Source of the DNA: Zestosphaera sp.
Lineage (GTDB): Archaea > Thermoproteota > Thermoprotei_A > Sulfolobales > NBVN01
Direction of reading: 5' to 3'
Assembly (NCBI GenBank): GCA_038843015.1
Contig: JAWBSH010000004.1
Span: 1 to 64,000, forward strand
Length of the DNA stretch: 64,000 nt
Positions 22,247 to 25,510 of this stretch are shown here, piece after piece. Each line of letters starts with the position of its first letter. Positions within the stretch are counted from its first letter, which is position 1. Under the pieces are notes generated by a model, which saw only the letters and a program-made list of their open reading frames with translations, was not told where the DNA came from and did not search any database. A program made the translations under genes and the position numbers.

Positions 22247-24079
22247 ATGGTTAGAGTAGCCGTAATAGACTATGATCTCTGCAAGCCGCATAGGTGTCGT
22301 TTAGAGTGTGTAAGGTTCTGTCCAATTAATCGGAGCGGTGGCAAAGCCATAGAGATTTCTGAGTCTGTTGGTGGTAAGGCCTTCATCTACGAGGTCGCGT
22401 GCGTCGGTTGTGGTATATGCGTTAAGAAGTGTCCTTACTACGCCATAAACGTAGTTAATCTGCCTGACGAGCTAGAGAAGCGCGTAGTACATAGGTATGG
22501 GCCTAACGCATTCAAACTTTATGGTCTGCCAGTACCTCAGACAGGGATGGTCATAGGCATATTAGGTAAGAACGGGTCTGGAAAGACTACTGTTTTAAGA
22601 ATACTCTCAGGTGACTTAATACCTAACTTAGGAGTCTTTGATGCAGAGCCTTCCTGGGATAAAGTACTTGAAAGGTTTAGAGGTACGGAACTCTATAACT
22701 ACATTAAAACAATAGCTGACAACAGCTTGAGGAGAGTTCATAAAATACAGCACGTAGACCTAGTAAGGAAGTACGTGAGAGGTCGTGTGGGTGAAGTCTT
22801 AACAAAGATAGATGAGAGAGGACTACTAAATGAAGTCAAGAAGATGTTGTCTTTAGAAAGTGCTTGGGATAATAAAGTCAGTAACTTAAGTGGCGGAGAA
22901 CTCCAGAGGTTTACGGTGGGTGCTGCTCTACTCAGGGAAGCGAAAGCTTACTTCTTTGATGAACCTTCTAGTTACTTAGACGTCAAGGAGAGATTAGCTG
23001 TAGCAAACGCTATCAGAGAATTAACGCCTAGATCTGCCTACGTCATGGTAGTAGAGCACGACCTGGCAGTACTAGATTACGTCTCAGATAGCGTAGTCGT
23101 AATGTATGGGGAGCCAGGTGTTTACGGGCTTTGCTCGAAGCTTTACTCGGTAGGGTCTGGAATAAACCACTTCTTAGAAGGCTTCCTTCCAGCAGAGAAC
23201 ATGAGAATAAGAAACGAGAAAATAACTTTCTACTTTAGAGCAGGACCTACAGAGATTACCGAGTCTAGAAAACCTTACTTGTACTGGCCTCACATGACGA
23301 AGAACCTCGACAACTTCAAGCTGGTTGTTGAGGAGGGCACCTCATATGTGGGCGAGATAATAGGTATATTAGGGCCTAATGCGATAGGCAAGACCACGTT
23401 TATAAGACTTCTTGCAGGAGAACTTAAGCCCGAAGAAGGATATGTGACCACGGAAGGACTCAAAATATCTTATAAGCCACAATACATAAGAGCTGAGAAC
23501 TATCCCTGGACAACAGTTGAGGAAGCTCTAAATGAACTTAGAAAGGAGGGCATGGCATCTACGGAATGGTTCGAGACTGACGTGATCAGGAAGTTAGGTC
23601 TTCATAAATTAGGAGATAAAGAAATAGTGAGTCTCAGTGGAGGAGAATTACAGAAATTTGCTGTGGCAGTGTCTTTAGCTAGAGAAGCCGACTTATACTT
23701 AATTGACGAGCCGTCAGCATTCATAGATGTGGAAGAGAGACTAACCGTTGCTAAAGCTATAAAGAAAGTAGCGGAAGTACGTAAGACCACTATATTCGTC
23801 GTAGATCACGACCTGCTCGTCACTGACTACATCTCGGATAGAGTCATAGTCTTTGAGGGCATTCCAGGTAAGGAAGGGCACGCTAGACCGCCAGCAGACC
23901 TCAGATCAGGCATGAATAAGTTCCTAGAAGGAGTGCAAGTAACTTTCAGGAGAGACCCGAGAACGTATAGGCCTAGAATAAATAAGCCAGGTTCTTACTT
24001 AGACAGACAGCAGAAGATGTCAGGAGAATACTACTATGTCACCCCTCTGCAGCACACGACCGAAAAGACTGAAGATTGA
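22247..24079 (+). CDS. abce1: ABCE1/Rli1 ribosome-recycling ATPase
   Basis: About 610 residues from ATG 22247 (after GTGAGG). Two N-terminal 4Fe-4S motifs: CKPHRCRLECVRFCP and CVGCGICVKKCP. First ABC domain: Walker A GKNGSGKTT, signature LSGGELQRF, Walker B AYFFDEPSSYLD. Second: GPNAIGKTTF, LSGGELQKF, DLYLIDEPSAFID. ABCE1 splits 70S/archaeal ribosomes after termination together with aRF1 or Pelota. Length and order are standard. It has no operon partners here. Confidence 0.98.
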   Translation: MVRVAVIDYDLCKPHRCRLECVRFCPINRSGGKAIEISESVGGKAFIYEVACVGCGICVKKCPYYAINVVNLPDELEKRVVHRYGPNAFKLYGLPVPQTGMVIGILGKNGSGKTTVLRILSGDLIPNLGVFDAEPSWDKVLERFRGTELYNYIKTIADNSLRRVHKIQHVDLVRKYVRGRVGEVLTKIDERGLLNEVKKMLSLESAWDNKVSNLSGGELQRFTVGAALLREAKAYFFDEPSSYLDVKERLAVANAIRELTPRSAYVMVVEHDLAVLDYVSDSVVVMYGEPGVYGLCSKLYSVGSGINHFLEGFLPAENMRIRNEKITFYFRAGPTEITESRKPYLYWPHMTKNLDNFKLVVEEGTSYVGEIIGILGPNAIGKTTFIRLLAGELKPEEGYVTTEGLKISYKPQYIRAENYPWTTVEEALNELRKEGMASTEWFETDVIRKLGLHKLGDKEIVSLSGGELQKFAVAVSLAREADLYLIDEPSAFIDVEERLTVAKAIKKVAEVRKTTIFVVDHDLLVTDYISDRVIVFEGIPGKEGHARPPADLRSGMNKFLEGVQVTFRRDPRTYRPRINKPGSYLDRQQKMSGEYYYVTPLQHTTEKTED

Positions 24080-24143: not shown

Positions 24144-24416
24144 CTAACGAAGAATCTCTAGCTCTAGTTCTATGTAGGAAAACCTTCTTCCACCATACTC
24201 TACAGTACCTATATTGACTTTAGAGAGCTTTACTAAACCCTCTAGTCTCTTACTAATGAGGTTATAGAGATCTACTGCTCTAACTATGTTATCACCCCTA
24301 CCGTAGAGCACTACCTTCTTGATACCCTGGTTAACATAATTATTAAATAGTAGCATGTAGGTCTCCATAGCTTTATTACCCACATTTAATTTCTTAACAG
24401 CTACTGAGTTCATCAC
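24144..24416 (-). CDS. Alba-family paralogue (Alba2-type)
   Basis: 90 residues aligning along its whole length with the Alba at 752: KKLNVGNKAMETYMLLFN matches [38 protein letters not shown] matches [20 protein letters not shown], and the final YIELELEI the last strand. Only one lysine of the DNA-binding pair remains (VGNK). Alba2 proteins form heterodimers with Alba and change how DNA is bridged. It is divergent from the repeat-rich accessory stretch that follows and convergent with abce1. Confidence 0.85.
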   Translation of the reverse strand: MMNSVAVKKLNVGNKAMETYMLLFNNYVNQGIKKVVLYGRGDNIVRAVDLYNLISKRLEGLVKLSKVNIGTVEYGGRRFSYIELELEILR

Positions 24417-25190: not shown

Positions 25191-25199
25191 AATATTTAA
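25191..25199 (+). promoter_or_regulatory. TATA box of the Glu/Trp microprotein gene
   Basis: AATATTTAA, within AAAATATTTAAAACC. Its centre is about 25 bp before the ATG at 25220, which predicts a leaderless transcript starting at or next to the start codon. Confidence 0.55.
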
Positions 25200-25219: not shown

Positions 25220-25318
25220 ATGGTGTGCCTTATGTTTGAGGAAGAGTGGTGGGAAGAAGAAGAGGAGGAATGGTGGGAAGAAGAGTGGGAAGAGAGTGAA
25301 GAAGAGGAGTGGGAGTAA
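25220..25318 (+). CDS. 32-residue Glu/Trp-rich microprotein
   Basis: ATG 25220 to TAA 25316-25318. After MVCLM the protein reads FEEEWWEEEEEEWWEEEWEE and ends SEEEEWE: by my count 19 Glu and 6 Trp in 32 residues, no Lys or Arg. WW pairs at 10-11 and 18-19 and single W at 23 and 31 lie 4-8 residues apart, which would give an amphipathic acidic helix with a Trp stripe. It has a good TATA box at leaderless distance and its own stop before AT-rich DNA. Low-complexity purine-rich DNA could also produce such a frame by chance, so expression needs showing. No known family comes to mind. Confidence 0.55.
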   Translation: MVCLMFEEEWWEEEEEEWWEEEWEESEEEEWE

Positions 25319-25510
25319 ACCCACCTTCTCACTCGATTTTTAAGTTAAGACTTTATGAAGTGTTACAATGTGTTTGCTTCAATAACACGTTAGCTTAGTT
25401 CTTCCAACTACTAAGAGCAAGGCTTTTAGTTGTAAGTAGGAGAAGAAACGCGTGCTTTAACGACATATGAAGGCTGAGTGTCTAGCTTCTGATCATATTG
25501 ATAAATTTTA

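Follow-up and report, generated by a model that had tools for sequence, protein, structure and literature searches.

Can an open reading frame that spells little other than glutamate and tryptophan be a gene, and what would its product do? The question was raised by a frame at positions 25220-25318 (+ strand) of the window, the 64,000-nt stretch of Zestosphaera DNA analyzed here. Its translation, MVCLMFEEEWWEEEEEEWWEEEWEESEEEEWE followed by a stop, contains 32 residues, of which 19 are Glu and 6 are Trp, and no Lys, Arg or His. ORFs of 18-60 aa with at least 55% acidic residues and at least 3 Trp were absent from 2.56 Mb of third-order Markov sequence modelled on the window, which itself contains only this one, and the DNA motif of the gene occurs once in its own 1.55 Mb genome. 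The initial annotation read the frame as a microprotein driven by a TATA box of its own, and both points are borne out by the comparisons below: the frame encodes a genuine microprotein, hereafter EW, that is conserved in the genus and in the phylum. That EW is a real conserved protein we regard as virtually certain.

Signals and start of the EW gene

Table 1. Features of the EW locus, numbered by window position
Feature	Coordinates	Strand	Remark
abce1/rli1, ribosome-recycling ATPase	22247..24079	+	Pfam Fer4_RLI and ABC_tran
alba-like gene	24144..24416	-	relative in cluster c11 matches Pfam Alba
TATA-like box AATATTTAA of the EW gene	25191..25199	+	similarly placed box in 5/5 genus genomes
First in-frame ATG and MVCL codons (start as initially annotated), probably 5' leader	25220..25231	+	private to the window genome
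GGTG Shine-Dalgarno motif	25222..25225	+	6 nt upstream of ATG 25232
EW microprotein, 28 aa, MFEEEWWEEEEEEWWEEEWEESEEEEWE	25232..25318	+	conserved in 4/4 other genus genomes
TTTTT run after the EW stop, possible U-rich terminator	25337..25341	+	read by eye

The centre of the TATA-like box lies 25 bp before the ATG at 25220, from which a leaderless mRNA had been predicted. The other four genomes of the genus speak for a different start (Table 1). All four carry an in-frame TAA or TAG at or near the position of the first ATG, just upstream of the conserved one, and the EW proteins of these relatives begin with MFEEEWW or similar at the position equivalent to 25232. In the same genomes, the EW ATG follows GGTG at 6-8 nt and an AT-rich box at 30-40 bp. 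Judged from this comparison, the true start is the second ATG, 12 nt downstream of the one initially chosen. Because this conserved start lies behind GGTG, the mRNA is predicted to carry a short Shine-Dalgarno leader. The product is thus 28 aa long in the genus (29 aa in two relatives). After the stop codon, the window has CTCGATTTTTAAGTTAAGACTT in common with two relatives, and variants such as CTCGCTCGATTTTTAAG occur (both read by eye). The window member ends in WE instead of W; otherwise it has the properties by which we define the EW family (18 to about 60 aa, 50% or more of them acidic, recurring Trp/Phe, a Shine-Dalgarno motif and TATA box for the gene alone, W or F at the C-terminus), including the abce1/cgi121 neighbourhood, with abce1 about 1.15 kb upstream.

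Selection on the protein and composition of the family

The EW peptide is under protein-level purifying selection. Ten pairwise comparisons within the genus yielded 76 synonymous versus 4 non-synonymous codon differences, and 78 of the 82 nucleotide changes fell on codon position 3. Across the wider family, 87 close pairs, which are not independent of one another, gave 612 synonymous versus 165 non-synonymous differences. The gene was to be dismissed if close relatives did not conserve it or if indels disrupted the frame; instead, the frame is found phylum-wide and its indels are whole codons. Since positions 1 and 2 are fixed and GAY, TTY and CTN codons appear in divergent members, it is the acidic and large hydrophobic residues that are kept, not purines.

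Statistics were compiled from 144 distinct ORFs, which encode 127 proteins; promoter and ribosome-binding signals were counted over 143. Members range from 18 to about 60 residues (median, 28 aa) and consist of 70.3% E, 17.8% W, 3.0% F, 2.2% L and 2.1% D, with a median net charge of -19 and no K or R in 107 members. The chain ends with W in 120 members and with F in 8, and the final five residues are EEEEW in 92. A Shine-Dalgarno-like motif precedes 106 of the 143 (18 +/- 4 in shuffles) and a TATA-like box 78 (17 +/- 3.5 in shuffles). Composition, not sequence, is conserved. The large hydrophobic residues of the 127 proteins are evenly spaced, with a period of 4.5-6 residues (z 7-10 at 60-80 degrees), and show no alpha-helical periodicity at 100 degrees (z = -1.3), which does not support the Trp-striped helix first envisaged. 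AlphaFold draws EW as a helix, with a mean pLDDT of 55 to 87 over five models; the program leans to helices for Glu-rich peptides.

EW microproteins form an ancient, unannotated archaeal family whose genes have a promoter and a ribosome-binding site of their own, and they have probably gone unannotated because they are shorter than 60 residues and of low complexity. Searches of Pfam, NCBIfam and PDB sequences (phmmer) with the EW peptide returned no match. A Pfam search with the EW proteins at E up to 10 returned no family except one irrelevant hit, and Rfam had no match for the locus. Among the papers covered, a literature search found none on such a peptide, and a text search for EW motifs found one unrelated yeast paper. 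As background, an atlas of S. acidocaldarius gives 95 putative small protein genes (PMC12817955).

Distribution and gene neighbourhood

Protein searches found EW in only 8 of 41 genomes, though many of the others have it, and back-translated DNA patterns were used because of this under-detection. The pattern EWWEEEE occurred in 26 of the 31 genomes of the taxonomic family, including 11 of 11 high-quality ones, and a control pattern in none. EWWEEE occurred in 90 of the order's 214 genomes, with few exceptions at one locus, while the reversed control matched 4 genomes. A DNA scan of 84,980 species with EEWWEEEE matched 76 contigs. Their titles assign them to Thermoproteota MAGs, with the exception of one Njordarchaeota bin, and they represent mostly hyperthermophile lineages (Desulfurococcales, Pyrodictiaceae, Ignisphaera, Zestosphaera, Staphylothermus, Fervidicoccus and others). 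Genomes that the strict pattern does not pick up hold a divergent EW in the same slot before abce1, for example MILEEEWDEEWDEELEEEWEEEDLLEEEEW in group f11, which is probably Sulfolobaceae, and looser patterns reach EW forms across the phylum (MVFEEEEEWEEEDWEEEEWEEEEW, MREEEEWEEEEWEEEEWEEEEW, MPFEEEWEEEEELWDEFEEEWEEEEEW). Translation confirmed an EW ORF in 48 family-level groups, standalone in all but two (f36 and f69). By pattern search, which favours E/W-rich members and which divergent forms can escape, EW is seemingly absent from f6, most f5 genomes, f18 and f54; we infer that f5 is Acidilobaceae-like and f18 Nitrosopumilaceae-like. These absences are soft. EEEWEEE matches in f18 yielded no EW ORF at any of the four places fetched, and the three that were translated lie inside a long unrelated protein.

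The phylum of the Njordarchaeota bin also served as a specificity control: among its 227 genomes, two contained clear EW-type ORFs and one contained clustered, unread hits (2-3/227). Most of the matches read there are an acidic loop of a longer, apparently CdhC-like protein (by eye). The bin's 3-kb contig JAHKLG010000194.1 (L080) has the order rps17e-PRTase-cgi121-EW-tfs-abce1, the same as in Thermoproteota group f13; given this synteny it is probably mis-binned. Common descent of all EW groups rests on synteny and composition, as the sequence is too simple to prove homology.

At the level of the order, EW occupies a slot that runs thermosome - rps17e - urm1-like - cgi121 - EW - (tfs) - abce1 - fructose-bisphosphatase/aldolase - tpiA. 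The CGI-121, Ribosomal_S17e, RPB9-type Zn ribbon and RLI genes were assigned by Pfam on single representatives, and those for thermosome, FBPA and TIM by eye. The urm1-like gene (L063:2131-2458, with similar genes in L026, L035 and L046) encodes a Urm1/SAMP-like ubiquitin-fold protein ending in GG, whose Urm1/SAMP1 NCBIfam match is below the cut-off. Among the 144 ORFs, 109 have abce1 and 78 have cgi121 within 1.5 kb, and rps17e lies near 60, tfs near 31 and alba near 4. When groups are counted with a 2-kb limit, abce1 accompanies EW in 29 of the 48 and cgi121 in 14; about 19 groups have no abce1 near EW. In other classes, EW is often found 50-150 bp upstream of abce1. The strand of EW relative to its neighbours flips while its position is kept, as in Staphylothermus-like genomes, and EW is therefore an independent gene that probably acts in trans.

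Relocated EW genes sit mostly beside unrelated, largely metabolic genes (most named by eye), and sometimes beside aEF2 (f60) or enzymes of tRNA position 37. In L277 (f63), EW directly follows the KEOPS genes kae1 and bud32. In L298 and L299 (f5), a longer EW protein lies between a t6A methylthiotransferase (MtaB-like; TIGR01578, 382 bits, cut-off 314.7) and an ATPase judged by eye to be CdvC/Vps4-like. In f40, a Taw2/Trm5-like methyltransferase, whose match is below the cut-off, adjoins EW. As the position-37 neighbours were seen among about 20 relocations, we treat them as a post-hoc hint. In f25, the EW gene is divergent from a gene for a conserved protein, some 190 aa long, that matches nothing in NCBIfam (L293:2615-3184, L294:2623-3228).

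EW has no standalone form in groups f36 and f69, where it trails a Zn-binding domain. In f36 the domain ahead of the EW tail is a Zn ribbon of LysW-like type, which scores 29.3 bits against PF21344 (cut-off 27), and in f69 the tail follows a Cys-rich, Zn-finger-like segment with no Pfam match at the cut-off. The f36 genes (L228:2786-3061, - strand; L246:2827-3108, + strand) have a long Glu/Trp tail, and a TldD/PmbA-like gene adjoins them (by eye). A 219-aa open segment (L306, - strand) from the phylum of the Njordarchaeota bin likewise encodes a Cys-rich protein with a long Glu/Trp tail. EW tails on Zn-binding or Cys-rich proteins may be convergent.

Candidate functions and significance

We lean, by a little, towards a function of EW in translation or tRNA maturation. 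EW would be a soluble polyanion, in large part disordered or with transient helix, and its Trp residues, set at even distances, would act as exposed stickers in fuzzy binding to a surface of the translation machinery that is basic in part and hydrophobic in part. Its likeliest target would be ABCE1, or a subunit bound by ABCE1, and EW may in this way tune ribosome splitting in trans, by analogy with the stalk protein aP1, whose C-terminal tail binds ABCE1 and translational GTPases. The C-terminal region of aP1 binds aEF1A, aEF2, aIF5B and aABCE1, in a conformation that differs with each (PMC6791870). Like EW, the aP1 tail is short and combines acidic residues with exposed large hydrophobic ones; however, it is part of a ribosomal protein with an N-terminal domain and uses Leu, Met and Phe (for example SEEEALAGLSALFG), whereas EW comes from a gene of its own (28 aa), is much the more acidic of the two and relies on Trp, and its binding to ABCE1 is a prediction. 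We prefer a stalk-tail-like ligand of ABCE1 or the ribosome because EW is a free peptide with extreme charge, regularly exposed Trp and linkage to abce1. Even so, action specifically through ABCE1 and ribosome recycling is a tentative first choice, drawn by analogy and more doubtful than the general link to translation: the neighbourhood itself is old and the linkage may be inherited rather than functional, the groups without nearby abce1 and the relocated genes do not fit, aP1 uses no Trp in its tail, and some lineages seem to do without EW, which is then not universally needed.

The neighbours of EW also allow it to be read as a tRNA mimic or partner of KEOPS and the position-37 enzymes, filling the tRNA surface of Cgi121/Kae1 and regulating t6A synthesis or product release. 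The frequency of cgi121, its direct contact with EW in f9 g51 where abce1 is further off, and the adjoining genes in f63, f5 and f40 favour this reading; yet abce1 linkage is the broader of the two and the position-37 pattern is post hoc, with one of its matches below cut-off, and we think it unlikely. A similarly small chance goes to EW as a general polyanionic chaperone that shields basic ribosomal or chromatin proteins and has no dedicated partner. Its conserved composition, its charge and the proximity of rps17e suit such a role, but a pure polyanion needs neither some 18% evenly spaced Trp nor a conserved C-terminal aromatic residue. The initial annotation had a peptide capping a basic surface such as Alba or the ribosome; the extreme acidity fits and the ribosome is still a candidate, while the rarity of alba among the neighbours argues against Alba, as it does against the chaperone reading. 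A ligand of the transcription apparatus (TFS or the RNA polymerase channel) is improbable: tfs adjoins EW in many groups, but in most, the window's included, the slot lacks tfs while EW and abce1 stay.

It is very improbable that the locus is a cis-acting leader peptide or uORF of abce1, or an RNA element with a purine tract. In most groups EW does precede abce1 closely and on the same strand, but in the window it lies downstream, in Staphylothermus-like genomes it opposes its neighbours, it has its own TATA box and Shine-Dalgarno motif, variation is concentrated on the third codon position while positions 1 and 2 are held, divergent members abandon the purine-only codons, and Rfam is silent. 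We give marginally less credence still to an amino-group carrier of the LysW/ArgW type or a relative of one. The ribbon-EW fusion of f36 and an EDWGE-like string in f26 members point that way; the Zn domain, however, is missing from all other members, the usual C-terminus is W, where EDWGE ends in Glu, the f36 gene stands outside any lysine or arginine operon, and NF041070 matched below cut-off. LysW and ArgW resemble EW in their small size and acidic, Trp-containing C-terminal end, whereas the Zn ribbon and terminal EDWGE are both absent from standalone EW proteins, the window member among them. The anti-TnpB or anti-mobile-element mimic initially proposed, on account of putative TnpB remains just upstream in the window, has next to no likelihood left: these remains seem local to the window genome, EW is chromosomal, usually single-locus and vertically conserved, sits elsewhere mostly in a housekeeping slot whose conserved neighbours are abce1, cgi121, rps17e and tfs, and the sole match in a viral scan (IMG/VR) was an unrelated short ORF, MVDPPTAQELEEEWWEEEESLYLMDIGANPITGY, without the family composition.

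Other small acidic proteins offer looser parallels. DSS1/SEM1 is a small acidic protein of about 70 aa of the eukaryotic proteasome lid, BRCA2 and RPA; like EW, it is tiny, very acidic and equipped with aromatic anchors (Trp/Phe), and it is a disordered hub, but it is longer, has a distinct motif order and its Pfam family does not match EW. Acidic activation domains, as described by the acidic-exposure model (PMC10550315), share with EW the acidic and hydrophobic clusters and the tolerance of sequence change; they are segments of transcription factors, whereas EW is a stand-alone archaeal peptide.

Taken together, a whole conserved family in a translation neighbourhood, with members through the greater part of an archaeal phylum, has apparently escaped notice so far. 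EW is a core-gene neighbour that annotation passed over, being short, of low complexity and easily lost to similarity-search filters. That EW is a pan-Thermoproteota, ancestrally inherited translation factor of essentially two amino acids, which binds to ABCE1, to KEOPS or to the ribosome and controls recycling or tRNA maturation, is a serious possibility, although one we hold to be somewhat short of probable. The retention of an essentially two-amino-acid protein across a phylum near ABCE1 and t6A genes points to a function carried by composition rather than sequence, and EW provides a natural test of partner binding by a polyanion with evenly spaced Trp. As a small, synthesizable candidate regulator that is also present where genetic tools exist (in f11, probably Sulfolobaceae), EW may be of use to research on archaeal translation.
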